A stretch of DNA of 64,000 nt from Plicaturopsis crispa FD-325 SS-3. Its lineage: Eukaryota; Basidiomycota; Agaricomycetes; Amylocorticiales; Amylocorticiaceae. Below, one piece after another: positions 20,891-61,678 of this stretch (position 1 is its first letter; each line of letters starts with the position of its first letter). Where the stretch lies: NCBI GenBank assembly GCA_000827205.1, contig KN832558.1, forward strand, positions 681,020 through 745,019, in the 5' to 3' direction. A model generated the notes under the pieces. The model was not told where the DNA came from. It saw only the letters and a program-made list of their open reading frames with translations, and made no database searches. The position numbers and the translations under genes were made by a program.

Positions 20891-23045
20891 TCACGGCCCT
20901 CCACTCGCGCCTCCACTAGGGCCAGCCTCCGGGTGTCCCCCGAAGCTAGGATACATGTAGGAGGTATCCTCGGCAGCATCCGCGCCCATGGCATGCTCAC
21001 CGACACCACCATCACTGTGGTATTCGTGCCCGGAGCTGTGGTCCGCCATGGCTTCTGCTTGGGCGAGGAAGGCGAGGTACTCTGGGCTCTGCATGAACGA
21101 GAAATCTGCATCGTGCATGTCCGGCGGTAGCGGTAGCGCGGAAGGCTCGATGAGGCCCAGGTTCTCTGCGAACTGGCGGCTGCTCTCGCTGGGTGCCATC
21201 ATGCTGATATTCATGGCGAGCTGGCTGTAGCTCGATGGGGACGCCGCAACGGAGGAATTCCCCGAGTGCGTAGACGCAGTATGGTAAGAGGATGTTGGGG
21301 AGGTCGACGAGGACGCGGTGCGTTGGCGGGGGACGTCGACTTCGAGGGAGTGGTAGGAGCTCGAGCGCGAGTGTAAGCTTGCAGAGCGTGAATGGGGTTG
21401 TGGGATGTCTAGAGAAATTGCACTTCGTGGCTCCGATCTAGACGCATCGACGTGTGAGTTCAGCGTTGTCCGGGCATGCAGGAGAAGGTAAGACATACCC
21501 AGACTCGCTTCCCACACTGGGGCTTCGCTGCTCTTGCATCCCATACATATATGCGGAATCAGCGGACATGCCCAGATAGTCTGGCCTGCAAAGAGATTTT
21601 TCCCAGGTCAGCAACATCGTTCATGGAAGAGCGACAAAGAACGCACCCTTGCTCAGAATGGTGGCCCTCCCTGTCTGCAAAGCCCCATTCGTCGGTCGGT
21701 CCATCGACGGCAAAGTTAGGCGAGTTGATGTACTGGTCGAACATGCTGGACATCGGGCTACGCTGCTCCGTTGTGGGTGCACCACGCGGAGTGAGCTCGT
21801 GGTCGTGTCCCAGGTCATGCGAAGCGAGTCGACGAAGCGGACTGAACGAGCCGAGGTTCAGGTCCGCAGCGGTAACTCTCCTGCTGACATCGCTGGTGCC
21901 CTCGCCTTGTCCCTGCTCTGTCTCTTGCTCCTGTAGCGATTGACTCATGAAGCGCGCATCTAGCGAGGCCATACTAGACGAGTGTTGCGGATGAGGAGGG
22001 CGCGGAAGTAGAGATTGCTGCTCGGCGGTTGTCTGGGAGTGGAATCGCGCAACGGGTGTGCTGGAGAACCCAGTAGAGTGCCTGTTCAAGCCTGAATCCG
22101 AATGCGAGCGCTCCGCTGCACTAGATTCAGGCTGTCCGCCTGAGCCTGAACTAAGAGATCTACCAAGTCCATGTCCAGAATTCCCACTTGAGCTCGCCGC
22201 GGAGTGGCCGCTTCCACCAGTGTGCGTACGGAACAGCCTGGGCCGCGTGCTGTTTGGAGGTGGTTGTTCGCGATATTCGCATGTAAGCCCGCGCGCGGAG
22301 CAGCGGTCGCACTTGGGGCGAGTGCCAGAGCACTGTATAAGAATCAATCAATGAGCATGCAGAAAAGATACAGGACACCGGAGAAGGAGACCGGATGGGA
22401 TGTGTAATGGTGGCGGGGAATACAACAGTTGCGAGGGCAGACATACGGATTACATTTTGGGACATCGATTACATCTGGGCGCGATAGAATTAGGACCGTC
22501 GTGGGGATACACGGATAATTGACCACATAAAAGCGAAGGATATGATGGGTGGGTGGGTTGATGGAGCTGGATAGCTAACCGGTAACACAAAAAGGGATAC
22601 ACACCTTCGTTTTTCTGACTCTGCACTTTTCGCAAGCTTGTGCGGTGCGCGCACGTGCCGGTGCAATATGAAACGCGTACATGTCATCCTCATCTTCTGC
22701 GGATGCATCTTGCAGGGCGATAGACGGGGGTGCGACGTATGTGCGCTGTGGTGGAGGAGGGGGTGGTGGAAAGAATGAATGAGGTGTCGGTACGAACGGA
22801 GCCGACTGATGTTGGAAAGAAGGGGAGGTAGCAACACTCGGATCGTGCCATCCTTGCAGCTGGACCATCTGAGTTGGAGGCTGGTAGAACGTTGGTCGGA
22901 TATTAGCCGATTGAGATCCACTGCTTGTCTGTCCTTGGCTCTGTGAAGAACTAGCCGAAGGTTGAACGGCGTCGACGTCGAGCGGGATGATCGGCTTGGA
23001 TGTAACGGTGAACTTCCGAGGCTGCTTGTCCTGGTCCCGGTCCAT
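20891..23045 (-). CDS. Zn2Cys6 transcription factor, single zinc cluster
   Basis: Four exons (23045-22605, 22332-21647, 21585-21499, 21437-20891) give 586 residues with consistent phases. It starts MDRDQDKQPRKFTV. Residues 60-125 are Pro/Gln/Ser-rich. The zinc cluster is at about 138-165: CEKCRVRKTK, then CSGTRPKCDRC and GLTCEY, i.e. C-x2-C-x6-C-x6-C-x2-C-x6-C. The first intron is long for this genome (272 nt) and falls in phase 0 exactly before the third Cys. The rest is Ser-rich with no fungal_trans domain that I can see, and the C-terminus is acidic and Gly-rich. It is probably a sequence-specific nuclear regulator; targets are unknown. The cluster's intron position differs from that in the 41-47 kb genes, so it is not a close relative of them. 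Confidence 0.85.
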
Positions 23046-41523: not shown

Positions 41524-43617
41524 ATGTCGGGAGGCGGATCGGGCGAAAAGGATGAAGGTCTTTCCCCTCATTTAAGAAATATTGCGCTCCCTGGACCCCC
41601 GCGCCGACAGGGCCCGTATCCTGAGGAGGAGGAAGAGCAGCAGGGGCGCCGCGAGACATATCCCCCCCGATACGCCCCCTCCTCCGCCTTTCACTCGCAG
41701 GCGACTGCCCCCCGCGAGACGCCCTTCGGGTCCTTATTACCGGCGGTATTTGGGGAGCACCCTGGGCCGTCGCGGCGGGGGGACGAGCAGAGTGCGCGGC
41801 CGAGTGGTCCAAGCTGGTCGCAAGCCTCGTGGGCCCCGCCTCCCGACCCCCTGGCGCAGTCATCGCGCGGCCAATCGGTGCGAAGTTCGCAATCAAGTTA
41901 CACAGATCCGCACCGAGGACCGTACCACGAAGATGAGCGGGCGCGAATGGCGGGGCCGTCCTCGCAGCGGGAGCCGTCCCCGCCCCGGCGAATCGTCCGA
42001 GAACCGCAGGGGTACCACCATTACGACGATCACGGCCGTGTCGCCTCCGAGAGCGAGCGATATTACACCAGTCGCTCGCAGGAGGCCTTCGTGGGGCCCT
42101 CGACACATCGTGCCCGACCTGTCCCTCCTGCCGACACTTCTTCCATTCCTCATGGTTCGCAAATCCGCCCCGCCCATCGCGATCCTGGATTTCGCACTGC
42201 TGCTGCTCCGCAGAGCGTCCCTGTCCACACACAGGTGCAGCTGCCGTCGATCGAGACGCTTCTTGTCAGGCAGTCTGGCGAGCTGCGTCAGCAGCCAAGC
42301 ACGTACCCTGTTCATGAACGGCAGCCACATCGTCGACATACCGAAGGATATTATCCGCCTCGACCGCAGGATCAGCCGCAATCGAGGGACTATGCTGGGG
42401 AAATTTCGCGCATGCAGCAAGCAGCGCAGAGCCAATATCGGCCTACTGCCTCACGTACGTCGTCTCCGCTCCTAGATGCTTGGATTTCGAGTTTGATTTT
42501 TTGCGATGTAGATTTTACGCCAGGGCCACCGCCAGAGGATGAGCGGATGATTCGCCGCCAGCCCTCCAGGCAATCGATAGCGGCACCTCCGTTCGCAGCG
42601 CCGCCGCCATATGCCCCTCGGACGGAAATTCTGCCCCCGCCCCCAGATAATGAGGAGCGTTTGCTGCGCCGTCAATCTTCCAGGCAATCGGTAGCGGCAC
42701 CGTCGTACGCGCCGCCGCCATACACCACCTCCCTGGCTGATATCCGGCCTTCCGCAGAGGGGTCGATTGAGCATGCGCCCACCCTCCCGCCGTTTTCGGT
42801 GCAGCCGCCCGCGAGAATGCCGTCGTTCAGGGCCTACCAGCCGCGGCCGACGCCGCTCTCAGACCTAGCTGCACAAGAGGGTCTTCAGACTCGCGAAGGG
42901 GATGAACGGAGTGGCATGCAGGCGGGTCCACCCCCCACATACAGTCGCGTCGACCCTCAGGGGCGCATCCAGAAGCCGTATCAAAAGGTGCCTCTAGCTT
43001 GTGAATTCTGCAAAAGTGCGCACACATTTTTTTGCCTGGAGGAAGCGAAAAGAACGATTATATTAACCTGGGTATGTGTAGAGCGCAAGATCCGATGCGA
43101 TGGCGACCGACCGTGCTGGAACTGCCTGTCTCGCGGGGTACATTGCGAATACGCGATCCGGCGACGAACGCGGGGGCCCGGGAAAGCGCCAAAAGGATCA
43201 AGAAAGAAGAACTCGGGCAAGGCGCGCGCTGCGTCGACCACATCCTCGTCATCGCAGTATCCCCCATCTACGTACGCGTCGAGCAGCCATCTATCAGAGA
43301 GCATCTCTCCTACGAGCGAGACGCAACCGCAGGACCTCGTGTTCGGGCACCAGAGGGATCCGACGCTGCCATTTGCGGGGCTTGCGGAAAGGTACCCGGC
43401 CTCTTTGGAACAGCCACAAGCAGGGCCTAGCCGACGGTCCAGAGGGCGCACTGCGGGCGGAAGACTATCGATCTCGGAGGACGAGGCCCCGCGAGCGCCG
43501 AAGAAAGTCAAACGAGAAGACCACGTCGAGTATTCAAGGCCGCACGGACGGCAGGACGACGACGAGGAGGACGAAGACGACTACGACGACTACGACGAGG
43601 ACGAGGAAGAGGGCTGA
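41524..43617 (+). CDS. Zn2Cys6 transcription factor with acidic tail
   Basis: Three exons (41524-42454, 42512-43015, 43082-43617) give 656 residues. The first ~480 residues are Pro/Ser/Gln/Arg-rich and low in complexity. They include a duplicated module (RRQPSRQSIAAP and RRQSSRQSVAAP, about 40 residues apart). The zinc cluster lies near residue 475-505: CEFCKKRKIRC, then CWNC and GVHCEY, i.e. C-x2-C-x6-C-x5-C-x2-C-x6-C. A basic linker with RRRTRGPGKAPKGSRKK follows. The C-terminus is almost pure Asp/Glu/Tyr. The second intron interrupts the cluster in phase 1 in the codon after CEFCK. No fungal_trans domain is seen. The next two genes lie downstream on the same strand, which may matter for their origin (see findings). 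Confidence 0.85.
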   Translation: MSGGGSGEKDEGLSPHLRNIALPGPPRRQGPYPEEEEEQQGRRETYPPRYAPSSAFHSQATAPRETPFGSLLPAVFGEHPGPSRRGDEQSARPSGPSWSQASWAPPPDPLAQSSRGQSVRSSQSSYTDPHRGPYHEDERARMAGPSSQREPSPPRRIVREPQGYHHYDDHGRVASESERYYTSRSQEAFVGPSTHRARPVPPADTSSIPHGSQIRPAHRDPGFRTAAAPQSVPVHTQVQLPSIETLLVRQSGELRQQPSTYPVHERQPHRRHTEGYYPPRPQDQPQSRDYAGEISRMQQAAQSQYRPTASRTSSPLLDAWISSLIFCDVDFTPGPPPEDERMIRRQPSRQSIAAPPFAAPPPYAPRTEILPPPPDNEERLLRRQSSRQSVAAPSYAPPPYTTSLADIRPSAEGSIEHAPTLPPFSVQPPARMPSFRAYQPRPTPLSDLAAQEGLQTREGDERSGMQAGPPPTYSRVDPQGRIQKPYQKVPLACEFCKSAHTFFCLEEAKRTIILTWVCVERKIRCDGDRPCWNCLSRGVHCEYAIRRRTRGPGKAPKGSRKKNSGKARAASTTSSSSQYPPSTYASSSHLSESISPTSETQPQDLVFGHQRDPTLPFAGLAERYPASLEQPQAGPSRRSRGRTAGGRLSISEDEAPRAPKKVKREDHVEYSRPHGRQDDDEEDEDDYDDYDEDEEEG

Positions 43618-44092: not shown

Positions 44093-47074
44093 ATGGTCAA
44101 TTCCGATACAAAGCATAGGCTCGACGAGGACGACCGTTCGAGCCTCATGCCCGCACTCTCTACCCCGCTTAATTACCCCGCTTCCCTCTCTCAAAACGGC
44201 GCCCAAGCCGCCGCCGCTATCGAGCCCGGTGTCGCAAATGTCGGCGCTTACACTCTCATGGTCGCTGGTCAGCGCACAGGAAAGACTTCGTTTCTGAGGC
44301 TCCTGTTAGACACCAGCGATATCTCTCCGTCCACTACCAAGGATCAGCTCGCCTCCGTCGCCAAATTCGTCCAGGGTTGCAGCGGCCATACCTCCAACAT
44401 TCGCACCGCCTCCATAGATGTCGAGCTTGACACCCTCGGTAATGGCGTCCTGCAGCGTCTCGGCTTGACGCTGGTCGACACCCCGTCGTTGGACTTTCAA
44501 GACGAGGCCTCGGCGGAGAGGCTAGTGCTCGAGATCCTGAGACACGTTGATTCACGGCTGGCGGAGGGCATTGAAGACGTAAGTTCTCGTCCTCGCCTGC
44601 ACCCGCTCAAGACTCTCAATTCCAGTATCTACAGGAGTGGAAGGCCCGCAGCGGGGATCACCACGTCCATCTGTGCGTGGGCCGCAATTTGGATCAATCC
44701 GCGCCGATAGCTCACCGACATTTGCAGATGCATCTATTTTCTGGATCCCGATCAGATAGTTCCGCCATGTGTGCCTGGACCCCCAGCACCGCTCGTGTCC
44801 CGCACACATGCCGCCAGCTTCTCCCAGCCCGAGCTCGAGCCCGTCATCCTCGAACCACCTGTCACCACCAATCCCTCCCTATGCCGACCTACGCTGCCCG
44901 CGTCCGAAATCACTACGATACGCCGGCTCTCCGCCCGCGTCAATGTCCTTCCCGTCGTAGCGCGCGCCGACACCTTGACCAACGACCGCCTGGCGGCTGT
45001 TAAGAACGCTATACGCCGAGACTTGGCGGAGGCCGGTATTGGTTTCGGCATATTTGACATGGACAGCCATGCTCAGTACCCTACTCATCTGGACAGTGCC
45101 AGCTTACCTTCTGGATCCTCCAACGGCGACCCTTCTAATGGCTACGGGACCCATGTTAGCGGACCTCCATCCTCGGCGGCCAGTACATCTTCTCCCGTCT
45201 CACCTCCCGCATCGCCACTCCCTCGATTGCCCTACGCGCTCATTTCACCGGATATTTACTCCCACAGCGACGGTGTTCCCCGAGTCTTACCGCCTCGGCA
45301 CGAACTCGCGCTTCAATACACTCCTTCCAATCGTCAAACCACTCCTCCCAAGCTCGCAAAGGGCAAATTCGTGCGCAACTATAGATGGGGATCTATGGAC
45401 GTGCTCGACCCCGCTCACAGCGACTTTCTTCCCCTGCGCAATGCAATCTTCCATCACATGGAGGTAGGCCGCATTTGGCTTTGCTGCGCTGTCCTGTACT
45501 CACGCTATTTGTCTTGCAGACGTTGCAGAAATACACTCGCGAATATCTGTTCCAGAAATTCCGAGTGGACTATCAACAGCAGCAGCAACAGCAGTCGCTA
45601 TCCCACCACATGTCTTCGGGGATGTCAACGCATTCGCATGCTCCGTCTCTTACGCACGTTGCCCGACCAATTTTGGCTATCGACACCGCCCAGCACGGGC
45701 CCATGAGGAGACCCCCTTCGCTGTCGAGCGCTCGCAACATGAACCTAGGCCCTGATATGCGGTCTGGGCCAATCATCCGCACGGCTCAGGACACGAGCTC
45801 GTCCAATATGTCCGTCAAATCCTCCGGGCCAGGAGCCAGTAAGTTCTTATCTACTCACCTTACCCGATTAGGACTGGAAATCATCACCCTAAATTTCGGC
45901 CTTCCCACCCGCGGGGTAACGTGTTCTGATCCGTCTCTATTTCCAGGGTCCTCGCGACAGCGGACGAAAAAGATCACCGTCGCGTGCAACTTTTGTCGCT
46001 GTGAGTTCCGTCTGGGTCCCCCTGCTGATGATAGCGCAATCTTGTTGACGTCTTGCTCCAGCACGTAAACTCAAATGCGACGGCCTGCAGCCGTGCACGC
46101 AATGCCAGAAGCGGTCGCATCCGTGCGACTACATGGCACAAAACAAGCGCCGGGGGACCCTGCGGCAACGTCGGGCTGGCGAAGATAGCGACAGCGACGG
46201 CGAAGGTGCCAGTGGGGAGGACCGATCTGCGGATGCAGACGAACCTTCCGTCTCCCCGGAAGTGCCCTCCCAACCGTTATCGCGGCGAAGCTCAAACGTG
46301 GGAAGGCTGCCTGCAGAATCAGACACGTTTTCGTCTGCGTCCGGCGGCTTGACGGAATCGTACACCCATCCGCCTCCGCTCCCCCCGGTACGGACGAAGC
46401 CCCATGCCTCGCTCTCTCCTGCAGAGTCGCGCAGCATGTTCCGGGATACGGAGCTCCCGCATATCGCCACACTCTCCTTACCTGATACGTCGGCGACCTC
46501 TATGGACGCCCCTCTGCCCCCCATCAGGCCGGTATCGGACCACTCGACGCAAAGGAAGCGTGCATCGACTGTGCCCGGCAAAGCTACCCGCAACGCATCG
46601 ACGTCTGGACCAAAGATTGTGGCGTGCAATTTCTGTCGAGGTTAGTGCGGCAACTTGAAACTGCCGAATGCACTCTAACGCGATGTAACGCATCTAGCAC
46701 GGAAGACAAAATGCGACGGCGCCCATCCAGCGTGTTCGAGTTGCGTTCGCCGCTCACTCGCGTGCACGTATATCCACGATGCGGCGGCCAACAACGGACC
46801 ATCACAGAGAAAAGCTTCGCGGCGTGCCTCCGCTTCGGTAAAGGGCCGCTCTCCCTCCCCGCATTCCCCCCAGCTCCAGTCCTCCTCTTCACACACTGGC
46901 CACCTGGTCCGGCCGCATTCGGATGCCGAATCTATGTACGGGCGCCGCGACCACAGCCACGAGGACAGCGATATCGACCTCAAGAGGTCCTTCGAGGACG
47001 ACTCCGACATGCCCCACTCTCAAAAGAAAATGCGTCTGGACGGTCCCTCCCTGATGATCGCTAGCATACGCTAA
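44093..47074 (+). CDS. Septin-like GTPase fused to two Zn2Cys6 zinc clusters
   Basis: Seven exons join with matching phases: 44093-44578, 44626-44672, 44728-45463, 45520-45838, 45947-46000, 46062-46640, 46698-47074. The product is 865 residues. Residues 1-430 form a septin-type G domain: P-loop AGQRTGKT, G3-like LVDTPS, HVHLCIYFLDP, RRLSARVNVLPVVARADTLT (G4 position), and the septin unique-element-like block RWGSMDVLDPAHSDFLPLR. A helix and a Gln run follow (residue about 445). Zinc cluster 1 has Cys 543, 546, 553, 559, 562 and 569 (CNFCRSRKLKC...). Zinc cluster 2 has Cys 736, 739, 746, 753, 756 and 763 (CNFCRARKTKC...). The tail is Ser-rich and acidic/basic. Septins normally build cortical filaments, and Zn2Cys6 clusters bind DNA, so a nuclear role is inferred. 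G3 lacks the usual Gly, and G4 has Arg for Lys, so GTP hydrolysis may be altered. The alternative of two genes is weakened by continuous phase. Confidence 0.85.
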
Positions 47075-47622: not shown

Positions 47623-49704
47623 ATGTCCTTCTTCACTCGCAAGTCCTCGAAAAACGGGCAGGCGCAAAATGGCACCAACACGATTCGCAGCCGGCCGTCG
47701 CTACCGGAGCTGCATTCGCAGGGCATACCATGGCCAGACAGCCTCGTAGACGTCTCGTCCATACACGAGTCGCCGAACGGCGCACCAGCCCGCGGGGCTG
47801 CCATATCCTATGTCAAGGGGCCCAATATTCCGTTCCACAAACCGTTCCGGACGCCGTCTACCTCCGAGGGGAAGACCGAGGGGGGCCCTATCTCCTCTCT
47901 GTATATGTCGCACCCACCGTCGTCCTTCGCAAATGGCAAGCCCTCTGGGCGATTGGTGGGCCGGGCTAGCCAACGCAGAGCGCGCCACCCACCCACATTC
48001 AATCTTATGGTGCGTCTGCGCGACATATTCAATTGAGGCGGCGTGTAATAAAGGGGGCATAGGTTGCAGGCGGTAAGAACACCGGAAAGACGTCTCTGCT
48101 TCGCCTACTTCTCGAGACCGCGGATATATCGCCCACAGCGACGCTAGACCAGCAGGCAGCGGTCGAGCGGTTCATGAAAGGGAGAGCCAAGGTCACCAAG
48201 ACGATACAGGCGGCGTGTATCGAGATATGCGAGTCGCGGTTTGATCGCGTGCTTTTCTCGGTTATCGACACGCCGGGAATCGACTTTGTTGAGGGACGCG
48301 AGTTGAAGCTCGAGCGTCAGGTGTCTACCATTATGAAATACTTGGACGCGCAGTTCTACGACACGATGAGCGAGGTCAGCGTCTTGGAGTTTCATGCGAG
48401 AGTAGTATTGACATGTTTATGGTAGGAATCTAAAGTTGTCCGCGAAAATAAAGGCGACCAGCATATTCATTTGTGAGTGCCCATAGTTGGTTCATTGCCT
48501 CGTAAATCAATGCAGAGCGCATTTCTCAGATGCATATATATGATTGACCCTTCCTCAATAATGTCGGCGGGCACGAGAAAAGCCCAGTCGTCGTTTCCTT
48601 CAAAGACGCGCTCAGAGACCACGCTATCGTATCCTCCGCCCGACCTCGTCCCCGACTCCGCCTCCATTAACTCTGAGGACGAGGAGTCGGATCGACTGAC
48701 TATGTCACCCGCCGAAATCAGAGTCATTCGTCGGCTCTCTACGCGTGCCAATGTATTGCCCGTCATCGCACTCGCGGACTCATTGACGGACGACAAGCTT
48801 GCCGCGGTAAAGGAAGCCGTGCGCAGAGATCTCGCTGCCGAGGGCCTCGATTTTGGTGTTTTCAGCCCACCCAAGCCGGATACCGATGGAAAAGTCGCCA
48901 AGAAGTACCCTGGGAACGGCCTGCGGTTCGCGCCCGACGAAACAAAAGGCGAGGAGGCAGCTAACGCGGGTGACGGCGACGAAGACGAGGAACGCCCCTC
49001 GCGGCCCGTCATCAAATTACGCCCCACCCGGCATGCTAGTGCGCGGCTCTCCCGGTCGCGCTCGCGGCGCTCCCTCAAGGACGTGGCAGCGGAGGAGCTC
49101 CCGGACAATGACCGGGACAGCATCGCGAACGTGCGCTTCTCTGCGCACCTCGTTGCGAAAACGGATCTTGACTCCCTGCTCCCTTTCGCACTCATCGCGC
49201 CGGAAGACGTTCGCCAGCGGCGGAAGATGAGGCCGCCGCGGCCTGCGTCTGCGATTAGCAACATCTCGTCCCCAGTGGCCACCACTGAGAGCCACGCGGA
49301 CTTCTCCACCATCGCATCACCGACTAGTCCCACAGGCACTTCCATTCGAAATTTGGCATACCTCCAGGGTCCGCCGGATGATCTGAAAGGTGTCTTCACC
49401 CGGAAATTCCGGTGGGGGACTATCGACGTTCTCGATCCTCAGCACTGTGACTTTGCAGCTCTCCGAACGACTGTCTTTTCCACTCATATAAAGGTCAGTC
49501 GCGTCTATAGCTCTTCTTTGTTCGCAATTTGTTTGACTGATCATCTTCAAGGCGCTCAAAATGCATACAAAAGAAGTGTTGTACGAGAAATACAGGACAG
49601 AAAAACTCCTCGCAAGGCGTGCGACACAGCACATCACAGACGATCAGGCGAAGAGGCTCTTGGAAGGTGCGCCCCTTCCGTCAGCTATTCTGATTGCTTA
49701 CTAG
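47623..49704 (+). CDS. Septin-like GTPase, paralogue without zinc clusters
   Basis: Five exons (47623-48009, 48063-48374, 48426-48472, 48530-49493, 49552-49704) give about 620 residues. The N-terminal 129 residues are Ser/Arg-rich and disordered. The G domain starts right after the first intron: P-loop GGKNTGKT, G3 VIDTPGIDF, QHIHLCIYMIDPS, RRLSTRANVLPVIALADSLT (G4 with Leu where Lys is usual), a long Ser/Arg/Asp insertion, and RWGTIDVLDPQHCDFAALR matching the septin unique element. A helical C-terminus (MHTKEVLYEKYRTEKLLARR) could form a short coiled coil. It shares a 47-nt exon with identical phases with the upstream fusion gene. An alternative last exon after 49662 would change the final residues only. 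Confidence 0.85.
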
Positions 49705-50184
49705 CTCATCATGGGAATCGCTGAGCAGAGCTCGGCCTTTGATTTTTCTTTCGATATTAACATACCCACCGACATGTTTCTGTCGGTTATACCTCCCGGG
49801 TGCTTTGTTCCGTGGATGTGTACGCCTCTCGTTTTGTTTGCTGCTTCATCTCTGCTTGTGTCTTATCTGTTTTTATATCTGTCGGATGCTGTGGGAAGGA
49901 AGGAAAATGTCTGCCGGAATTTTTATGTTACTATTTCATTGGCTGGAATATCAGGCTGATTGGCTGAACTCTCTTTTCATACGACGCACTTTTGAACTCA
50001 AGACATCCCAGTCAGTCGCACATTCATCATGCATCATGAGGCTTCAAATTCAAAAGTACAAAAGCTCGAAGTGATGTCCCAGGGCCCCAGTTTTACGACT
50101 ACAAGTCACTACATCACACAAATATCCTAACACATACCTCTGGCGCCATTTTTCCTTAATACATTCCCCAGTAACGTTACACAC
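49705..50184. other. Convergent 3' intergenic region
   Basis: About 480 bp, T-rich, lie between convergent genes. No gene is seen, and the content fits two 3' untranslated regions. Confidence 0.4.
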
Positions 50185-57857: not shown

Positions 57858-59560
57858 CTAGTCTGCATCGTCCTCTTCAGAGTCTTCGCGGCCACTTCCA
57901 TGCAACCCTGTTTTGACACCCAAAAGCCCTTTCACATCATCCCAGAATGCGAACATGGACCAAGTTCTAGGCTCCCACACGTCGACCAACCGGTATCGAA
58001 AAGATCGCATCTGCCGCACATTCGGACAGACTACGGTCAAGAATATCGCAACCGCGTCGCATGTAGTTGTGTCGATAGCGACTTGCCCAACCTGCAGTAC
58101 AGCGAGTGTCCTGTTTGGTACGAGGCGGTCTGCCGATGCAATCACTGACATGATGCCGTCATTCGTGAAGGGAATGGGTACGCGGAAGGACCTGAGATTC
58201 TGACAGCGGCAGACCAGGGCGGCAAAACCAACGGCCGTAGCGTTATTAGACAAGCAGTGCCCGTAAACATACAGCTCCCGTATGCGCGGTCAGGATCGCG
58301 ACATCTCTCCCAACATGGTGTCGTCGAGGTGCAGATCACCCATTCCAACGGGGGAGAGTTTGACAGTTTCTAGGGCATGGAATGACAGGAGTGGTTCAAG
58401 AACGTCCCTCGGTGATGGCCCTTCGGTTCTTTGTGCAGTGTCTTCGTTGAAGTAATGACCGAGACGAATATCAACAGTAGTGAGATGCATAAGGTCTAAA
58501 CATTCTAGGAGTGCCTGGCTGAACTCCCGGCAGCGCGCCATTGAGTCGGAATCGGGAGATAACTCGTGTACATCATCTGGATCGTCTCGAGTGGAATATG
58601 ATGAGGGAGGCGCCTGAGGAACGTCAACAAAGTCTCCAGGGAGCTCGACGCAAGGCGGAGGATGCGAAGCGCTGGGAAGACAAATGACGTGCTTTGAGGC
58701 GGCAAGTCAACGAGTTCGACTGAGCAGAGTGAGAGTGTACGGAGCCTCGGCAGGGTAGCAATGTGGGAAATACCCTGCGAATTGAGTGCAACGACCTCGA
58801 GTTGGCGAATCATATTCCAGCCCTCAACTACAGCCGACAGAACAGGAACCTCCGCGCGTTCGATCCAGCTGCTGTTTGCTGCGAGCTTGAAGATCTCAAG
58901 CAAAGGGCAAACATCACGAATCGCTGCAACCAGGGAGGGGACCGCGCTTCCTCTCTGCATGCGGTGCTTCAACACGCACGATGTTATGCTTGGGCTTAGT
59001 AGCATCGTTTGGATATACGGGATGCAGTCATCCGACAGCTGCGCATCCGCGACGACGAGCTTCTGTAGCTTTGGGAACAGCGGAAGCATGGGCGCTGACG
59101 CAAGGAATTTTAAGAGGTGCGCGGCGTTCATGGAATCCAGCTTGGCCCAGGGCATCTTGCGCTCATCCTGGAAATCAAGCACCCGAACACGTTTGGCATA
59201 CAACTGGAGTCTCGCCCAATCACTTGCATGGAGAGGCCGCTTTATGTTCTGTGTTCGGGGTCGTAAGTATCGAGTACCACGAAGAAATGACGCGTAGACA
59301 TATGTGCGCACCAGTTCCTTGCCTACTGGCCCATTACTGCATAACGAGTCCCCTCCTATGAATTCGCATACGTCCTCCGGAAGGCACATGATAATTTGTG
59401 CCATGGACGTTTGGTATTGCCATAGCTCGTCGAGAGCGGGGTCGCGGAACAACCGACAGGTGGCGGCGAGGCTGGCGAGTGTCCCGTAGCCGCCGTATGC
59501 ATAAGTGTCCGCGAGAACGCGTCGTAGGATCTCATCTACCGACAAACAATGAGGTATCAT
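57858..59560 (-). pseudogene. Decayed F-box/leucine-rich protein gene
   Basis: From ATG 59560 (MIPHCLSVDEILRRVL) about 350 codons read as a basidiomycete F-box protein: an F-box-like start (SLAATCRLFRDPALDELW), then leucine-rich segments (LFPKLQKLVVADAQLSDDC, ISHIATLPRLRTLSLCSVEL). Near 58590 the coding signal moves to another frame (one frameshift) and continues through DDVHELSPDSDSM and LLSFHALETVKLSPVG. A TGA then interrupts the same frame at about 58287-58289, after which LVCRCQNLRSFRVPI and VVCPNVRQMRSFRYRLVDVW continue to 57858. Two lesions suggest a recent host pseudogene. A sequencing error could account for one of them but hardly for both. Confidence 0.7.
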
Positions 59561-60184
59561 TGCACTGCTAGTCAAGGTCAAAGTTCTGTAGTGAGCTCAG
59601 CAGCGAGGGGGTTGACTGACCGACGCCCTACTAGTCACTGCTGCGGATCTAGCAGTGGTAATGAAGACCTCCTGCTGTTCTTGCGAACCGGAGAATGAAA
59701 CTCGGGTCCAATTGGCAACTGGCGCAGTCCGCCATCTTGTAAGTATCGTCCTCAACACGCCGCATGATAGGGAAGGCTACCGCAGTACGTGCTAGCACCA
59801 AGTGCAGCATTAATGAAGAACTGTACACTCGAGCTCAAGTTCAAGTCGAGGTCGCAGATGGGTTGCAGATGGAAGCCAAGCAAGGCCGACAAAAAGTTGA
59901 TTCAAGTGCCGGGGAAATGGCGAACCAAATCAAGTCGGCTTGCGATTTGTCTCCGTGGGTGACCCAGGGGTGACCTTGACGCCTTTTGCGCCCAACGCTC
60001 ACCTCGAGTCCTACATATATTGCTGCGAAATAACGCACACACACTCAATCTTCTCGGTCGGTGCTCTGCGGCTTCTAGTACGCGACAATTGCGGCCATTG
60101 TATCCACTGAAACGGTGATAGGTCAAGTAAAGCTCGCCTTCTCTGACAGGGTGCCACAATGCTCATACCGGAGTCACACAGAAT
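59561..60184. other. Divergent intergenic region between two F-box genes
   Basis: About 620 bp. No supported gene; the short open frames have no recognisable content. It should hold the promoters of the two divergent F-box genes. Confidence 0.45.
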
Positions 60185-61678
60185 ATGCTACAAGTCAACC
60201 TTGTGGGTGACATGCTAAGCCTCGAGGGGCAGGCGAAGAAACTGGAAGCGTTTGAGGTCGACCTGCTGGAACAACTCCGGGCTGTACGACAGAGCTTGGC
60301 GTCCGTGAAGTCTCGCATTCGGAACCTGTTGAACCGACGTGCGCCTATATCGCGGCTGCCTGACGAGCTTCTGGCAGACATATTTGCGTACGGGGACCCA
60401 CGGCGCCGTACCAGTCAGCCGTCACACATTGTCGCTTCGCACGTCTCGCAGCACTGGCGCCAAGTGGCCCTTTGCAACCCCGGGCTGTGGACCCGTATAT
60501 GGATAGGCTGCCACTCATGTTCCATTGGGTTCCTGGACGCGCACATCGAACGATCACGCGAGTGTCTTCTTGACATCGACATCTCACACTCTCGCCCAAA
60601 GTCTGCTGCAATATACGACAGACTCGCAGCTCATGCTCATCGCTGGTCGTCGCTCGGTATCAACGGTGGCTACCTCGACGTCATATTGCCACGTATCGCT
60701 CACTTGAGCGCCCCGAATCTTCGTCACCTTCAAATCCATTACTTTCGTAAAGACGAGGACAGTTCAGCATCAACGCCAAATGCCATACTACAGGCTGGAT
60801 GCCCGCTGCTGTCGTCGTTGGAAATCTCGCTCGAGATCATGACAGGCTATATTCAGCGTGTACTGTGGAGAGACCATTGTATCCCTGGTGTATTGCCTAC
60901 TTTGACTCGACTTAAAATCGACCACTGCGAAATTTCTGTCGAGGCTATACAAGACATCCTCAGACAGACCACATCGCTCCAGGTATTGAGAGTTTCGTTT
61001 CCAGGCATCATCGACTTCGGGACCGGGCCTGCACATCCACCGGTCAATGTCCCCTCGCTCACCACACTTGACATCAGCCTTGTAGCCTTCTCCGAATCTC
61101 CCCCCTTGGACTGGCTGCCCAGGTTTTGCTCAGCTGTCTTGACCCCAAATGTCGAGGAGTTGGGGCTGGAGGTGCACTCAGACGACGGTAATGGGATTGA
61201 GCACTTTGCCTCCTGGCTACATTCAATGCCCGCGAGTCGACACCCTTTCCCGCGCGTTCACAAATTGTATCTTCACCCAGACGCGACTGTTACAATCCCG
61301 CTTGCACTGCCCAACGTGACCCACCTGACGGTCTGCCCCCATTTTTTCGACGAGCCCGGGGGCCCTTACGTCACCCTGAAACGTGTATTGGGGCCTTCAT
61401 CTGGCGGGACGGCTCCCCTCTGGCCATCCCTACACTCTCTTGTCCTCCAGGTAAAACACGTAAACACCCTCCGAAGCCCTCGGTATGATCCATCCGACAT
61501 CATCGACGCGCGTATCGCCGCGGGATGCCCTATCAAGTATTTGGCAATGACCCACGGTATCTCGGTTAGCGAGGCGACCATCCACTCGTTGAAGGACCGT
61601 CACGTACACTTCGAGCAGCTTCCGCCTGACGACCCAGGTATGCCACCTCCCTTTCCCCTCTCGAAATCCCGATGTTAA
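60185..61678 (+). CDS. F-box protein with leucine-rich-like tail
   Basis: A single intronless frame of 497 residues starts MLQVNLVGDMLSLEG. Residues 10-48 look like a coiled coil (KKLEAFEVDLLEQLRAVRQ). An F-box follows at about 56-105: ISRLPDELLADIFAYGD, HVSQHWRQVALCNPGLWTRI. This is the usual layout of the very large Agaricomycete F-box family. The remainder has leucine-rich-like segments (LRHLQIHYF, PTLTRLKIDHCEIS, VEELGLEV, LPNVTHLTVCPHF). It probably works as a substrate adaptor in an SCF ubiquitin ligase; substrates are unknown. It lies divergent to the decayed F-box gene at 57858-59560, as expected for a locally expanding family. Confidence 0.8.
   Translation: MLQVNLVGDMLSLEGQAKKLEAFEVDLLEQLRAVRQSLASVKSRIRNLLNRRAPISRLPDELLADIFAYGDPRRRTSQPSHIVASHVSQHWRQVALCNPGLWTRIWIGCHSCSIGFLDAHIERSRECLLDIDISHSRPKSAAIYDRLAAHAHRWSSLGINGGYLDVILPRIAHLSAPNLRHLQIHYFRKDEDSSASTPNAILQAGCPLLSSLEISLEIMTGYIQRVLWRDHCIPGVLPTLTRLKIDHCEISVEAIQDILRQTTSLQVLRVSFPGIIDFGTGPAHPPVNVPSLTTLDISLVAFSESPPLDWLPRFCSAVLTPNVEELGLEVHSDDGNGIEHFASWLHSMPASRHPFPRVHKLYLHPDATVTIPLALPNVTHLTVCPHFFDEPGGPYVTLKRVLGPSSGGTAPLWPSLHSLVLQVKHVNTLRSPRYDPSDIIDARIAAGCPIKYLAMTHGISVSEATIHSLKDRHVHFEQLPPDDPGMPPPFPLSKSRC

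Follow-up and report, generated by a model that had tools for sequence, protein, structure and literature searches.

The locus at 44093-47074 (+) of the window, a 64,000-nt stretch of contig KN832558.1 from Plicaturopsis crispa FD-325 SS-3, raises the question of whether a single gene joins a septin-like domain to two Zn2Cys6 zinc clusters, whether such a protein has been described before and what it might do. A first-pass annotation had claimed seven exons with compatible phases and one product of 865 residues. Rebuilding the gene model from the sequence gave the same seven phase-compatible exons, with a coding sequence of 2598 nt including the stop codon; all six introns, 47–108 nt in length, were bounded by GT and AG. 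Short introns, zinc-cluster genes and F-box genes in the window fit a basidiomycete origin. Exon 1 (44093..44578) contains the start codon, the P-loop region (AGQRTGKT, residues 58–65) and the G3 region (DTPS, residues 129–132), and is followed by a 47-nt exon 2 (44626..44672) within the septin-like domain. Exon 3 (44728..45463) encodes the G4 region (ARAD, residues 256–259), two Ser/Pro-rich inserts and the start of the septin unique element with R394, W398 and H408, while exon 4 (45520..45838) encodes the end of this element, a Gln run and a linker. Intron 4 (45839..45946), 108 nt long and stop-free in the septin frame, precedes exon 5 (45947..46000), which carries the N-terminal half of zinc cluster 1 (CNFCR) and ends at a phase-1 intron. 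The C-terminal half of this cluster, a further linker and the N-terminal half of zinc cluster 2 lie on exon 6 (46062..46640), and exon 7 (46698..47074) completes cluster 2 and encodes the tail and the stop codon; all these features are on the + strand. Third-position GC content was 0.61–0.78 in the seven exons, compared with 0.47–0.48 in flanking non-coding DNA and intron 4. A branch-point-like CTNAY motif, counted irrespective of how far it lay from the 3' end, was present in five of the six introns but in only two of the five introns of a neighbouring gene model (47623-49724), so that it lends the focal introns weak support.

The N-terminal half of the predicted protein matched the Pfam Septin family with 108.6 bits (cutoff 26.2; E 4.4e-31) in three stretches. 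Comparison of the septin part with PDB sequences returned 43 distinct sequences at E<=0.1, all of them named septins or yeast Cdc septins. A septin unique-element-like block, noted in the earlier annotation, was located at approximately residues 389–442 and aligns with solved septins. The residues R394, W398 and H408 within it are spaced (+4, +14) as are R360, W364 and H374 of Cdc3, a comparison based on residue spacing, and D259 of the ARAD motif presumably corresponds to Cdc3 D289. These four Cdc3 residues are described as highly conserved across septin groups in PMC6323724. The Gln-rich linker that had been claimed was also recovered, as a Gln run at residues 442–448 and a following stretch in which 44% of residues are Ser, Thr, Pro or Gln.

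The nucleotide-binding motifs gave a different picture. In septins, the motifs G1, G3 and G4 take the forms GxxxxGK[ST], DxPG and AKAD. The strict GxxxxGK[ST] and DxPG patterns were sought in the focal protein and were absent; DTPS was found where DTPG was expected and ARAD where AKAD was expected, and the P-loop was one residue short in two alignments, one with the product of the 47623-49724 gene and the other with yeast Cdc11. The earlier designation as a P-loop GTPase carries a caveat, in that a looser [AG]x4GK[ST] pattern is present but the strict G1 motif is not. As G1, G3 and G4 all depart from the septin forms, the domain is referred to here as 'septin-like' rather than as a septin. A polybasic stretch ahead of the G domain was looked for as well; none of the 38 residues preceding the P-loop was Lys or Arg, compared with six in the neighbouring protein. 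Compared with septins in general (PF00735, including fungal Group 5/AspE), the focal protein likewise has the Septin match, the unique element and the Cdc3-like spacing of Arg, Trp and His, but differs in its altered G1, G3 and G4, its two long inserts, the lack of a basic stretch ahead of the P-loop and the presence of zinc clusters beyond the Gln-rich linker. The septin fold thus appears to be partly kept, with nucleotide handling and membrane contact reduced, and any GTP switching has probably been weakened or abolished.

The neighbouring gene just downstream (47623..49724, +; 614 aa, six exons) is a tandem septin-like paralogue without zinc clusters. Its Septin match scored 157.5 bits in Pfam, and 161 of 412 aligned residues (39%) were identical to the septin part of the focal protein, with an alignment score of 525, whereas 200 shuffles reached at most 75. 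The two genes share the positions of the introns that border the 47-nt exon and of the one within the unique element. The paralogue also carries long inserts. It keeps the strict G1 pattern and DTPG, with G4 altered to ALAD. Gly 129 of G1, which according to PMC6323724 is strongly conserved in all septin groups, seems to have been lost in both proteins of the window, being replaced by Asn in the paralogue and coinciding with or adjoining the gap in the focal protein; such a loss may impair both the G interface and nucleotide binding.

In the C-terminal half of the focal protein, the Pfam Zn_clus family was matched with 67 bits (cutoff 21; E 1.5e-18) in two stretches. Both the Septin and the Zn_clus scores exceed the curated cutoffs by a wide margin, which meets the objection of a chance match. 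The cysteines of cluster 1 (residues 543–569, spacing C2C6C5C2C6C) and cluster 2 (residues 736–763, C2C6C6C2C6C) agree in position with the two complete six-Cys clusters previously proposed; all 12 cysteines are kept and the motif RKxKCDG is present in both clusters. Of 17 distinct PDB sequences matched by the zinc part, 16 were zinc-cluster proteins (CYP1/HAP1, PUT3, GAL4, LAC9, PPR1, LEU3 and Cep3/CBF3B), and the remaining one was a WD-repeat protein aligned outside the clusters. The focal protein shares complete clusters with RKxKCDG with the Zn2Cys6 proteins (PF00172; CYP1/HAP1, PUT3, GAL4, Cep3), but differs from them in having two clusters per chain, located in the C-terminal half, a septin-like N-terminal half and no Fungal_trans match. 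The Fungal_trans domain is common in Zn2Cys6 proteins and is not required; in the Pfam search only Septin and Zn_clus were found up to E 1, a range in which the Pfam filters discard most matches above E 0.1.

Upstream of the focal gene, on the same strand, a zinc-cluster gene (41524..43617, +) encodes a protein with a single cluster (Zn_clus 41 bits) in its C-terminal part; the model (675 aa) retains a probable small intron near 42455. Its cluster lies at residues 492–527, after a long stretch that seems of low complexity by eye, and the protein has a C-terminal acidic run. Clusters 1 and 2 of the focal protein share 22 of 36 residues with each other; the upstream cluster has 16 residues in common with each of them. 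The alignment score of cluster 1 was, however, nearly the same with cluster 2 (111) as with the upstream cluster (109), which leaves internal duplication as a candidate origin of the pair. All three clusters have an intron after CxxC[RK].

The joint between the two halves of the model was also examined. The septin and zinc parts could be encoded by two genes on separate mRNAs that were mis-joined in the model, and a precedent exists in the erroneous fusion of Aspergillus AspE with its neighbour, reported in PMC11238149. The frame of exon 4 is free of stop codons from 45520 to 46066, with intron 4 either removed or kept. Since intron 4 measures 108 nt (3 x 36), the septin frame enters the first half of cluster 1 whether this intron is spliced or retained; read as coding, it gives a product of 901 aa. 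Retention of intron 5 after intron 4, the latter spliced or kept, would bring a stop at 46066-46068, just beyond intron 5, and retention of intron 3 would end the septin frame at 45704. Shuffling left a 108-nt stretch of this kind open in 26% of cases, so that by itself the lack of a stop in intron 4 is neutral between the two readings. None of the signals AATAAA, ATTAAA, AATATA and TATAA was present in 45464-45946, which argues against a gene boundary there. Exon 4 contains six in-frame ATGs that could serve a separate zinc-cluster gene; the 100 nt upstream of these had 49–60% C+T, compared with 61–67% at three modelled starts of the neighbourhood, a small gap that leaves the ATG preceded by 60% C+T near the values of modelled starts. 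Separate genes are made unlikely by a published Pleurotus ostreatus protein reported with the same architecture (PMC7295025), and we regard two mis-joined genes as very improbable. The claimed union of the GTPase-like part and the zinc clusters in one gene is supported by the in-frame continuity and by this report from another fungus, and the fusion is probably real.

The first-pass annotation had further held that no described protein combines a septin with zinc clusters. This does not hold, because PoZCP55 of Pleurotus ostreatus, in print since 2020, is described as having three PF00735 septin domains and two C-terminal zinc clusters (Hou et al. 2020, PMC7295025). It is one of 66 proteins in the zinc-cluster protein list given there for this fungus, and its GenBank record falls within MN652925-MN652990. 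Domain order and number agree between PoZCP55 and the focal protein, each with three septin stretches, a likeness drawn from the published description; we infer that the 'three septin domains' correspond to three Pfam pieces of a single interrupted domain, the arrangement seen in the focal protein. In the same paper, gene structures were corrected against mapped RNA-seq reads as part of the general procedure, and PoZCP14 is the one protein named as lacking expression in every profile; we infer that PoZCP55 is expressed. The joined architecture is reported outside this genome and is not unique to it, and the focal gene is a further case of a reported, unstudied fusion.

Within the literature searched, PMC7295025 alone carried both PF00735 and PF00172, and it alone carried the name PoZCP55; among the matches listed, no functional study of a septin/zinc-cluster fusion was found. 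The fusion is unmentioned in the available excerpts of PMC4624876, PMC10287680, PMC11238149, PMC4035324, PMC12194055, PMC11121823 and PMC9862757. Contig collections were also searched for relatives, using E<=1e-3 in tblastn: focal residues 1–579 gave 14 pattern matches in viral contigs, an alignment-based query gave 78 in viral and 36 in prokaryotic contigs, and the paralogue gave 268 in prokaryotic genome contigs, none of which encoded a relative at this threshold. As the collections were viral or prokaryotic, this empty result says little about fungi.

With moderate confidence, we propose that the focal protein is a zinc-cluster DNA-binding regulator of PoZCP55 architecture in which a degenerate septin-like domain may serve as a pairing module. 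One gene would encode the degenerate septin-like domain fused to the two Zn2Cys6 clusters, and the protein would be active in the nucleus as a predicted DNA-binding regulator. CGG-type half sites are typical targets in the Zn2Cys6 family, and each cluster may contact one such putative half site. The septin-like domain, with its conserved unique-element residues, would putatively pair either with a second copy of itself or with the product of the tandem septin-like gene, a pairing that would replace the usual coiled coil and Fungal_trans domain. A broader version, according to which mushroom-lineage regulators took over the septin G domain for pairing or sensing and would form mixed complexes with the tandem-encoded partner, connecting cell-division state directly to promoters or chromosomes, is speculative and we hold it to be improbable. 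If conserved and expressed, the fusion would provide a clear-cut way of testing whether a septin fold is able to function in the nucleus within a DNA-binding protein.

The first-pass annotation had suggested an active switch, with a septin part whose GTP state or polymerisation is linked to DNA binding and which, as a filament, aligns many zinc clusters in register; such a switch might also connect the cortex to the nucleus. The retained unique element with its conserved residues and the formal match to [AG]x4GK[ST] are in keeping with this. The shortened P-loop, DTPS and ARAD in place of DTPG and AKAD, and the absence of Lys and Arg from the 38 positions preceding the P-loop weaken the idea of a GTP switch or filament. 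Many septins carry a coiled coil where the focal protein has its Gln-rich linker, which also counts against an active switch, and we consider such a switch distinctly unlikely.

The zinc clusters might instead serve chromosome or protein contacts rather than promoters, either within a septin-like scaffold at the cortex or, like Cep3/CBF3B, at the kinetochore. Two of the 17 PDB matches of the zinc part (two of the 16 zinc-cluster proteins) are Cep3 and CBF3 subunit B, which represent a kinetochore protein that is no transcription factor; 31.34% of Pleurotus zinc-cluster proteins are predicted to be cytoplasmic, a family-wide figure from PMC7295025. The Cep3 matches (E 0.0004 and 0.005) were, however, weaker than that of CYP1/HAP1 (2e-5), and RKxKCDG is kept in both clusters; this explanation is unlikely, if somewhat less so than the switch. 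It is also conceivable that the gene is a relic, a fusion of neighbours without selected function, as might be suggested by the septin-like and zinc-cluster genes flanking it on the same strand and by its altered G motifs. Set against this are the 865 open codons, the retention of all cluster cysteines and the matching architecture in Pleurotus reported in PMC7295025, and we judge a relic quite improbable.

Two further observations were made elsewhere in the window. A partial zinc cluster was found at 21562-22347 (-), matching profile positions 11–36 of Zn_clus with 21.4 bits (cutoff 21); the rest of this cluster is presumably located in an upstream exon. A pair of F-box-like loci was identified at 60131-61675 (+) and 58508-59596 (-), comprising one match of 30.5 bits (cutoff 24.3) and a nearby weaker match of 18.1 bits, below the cutoff.
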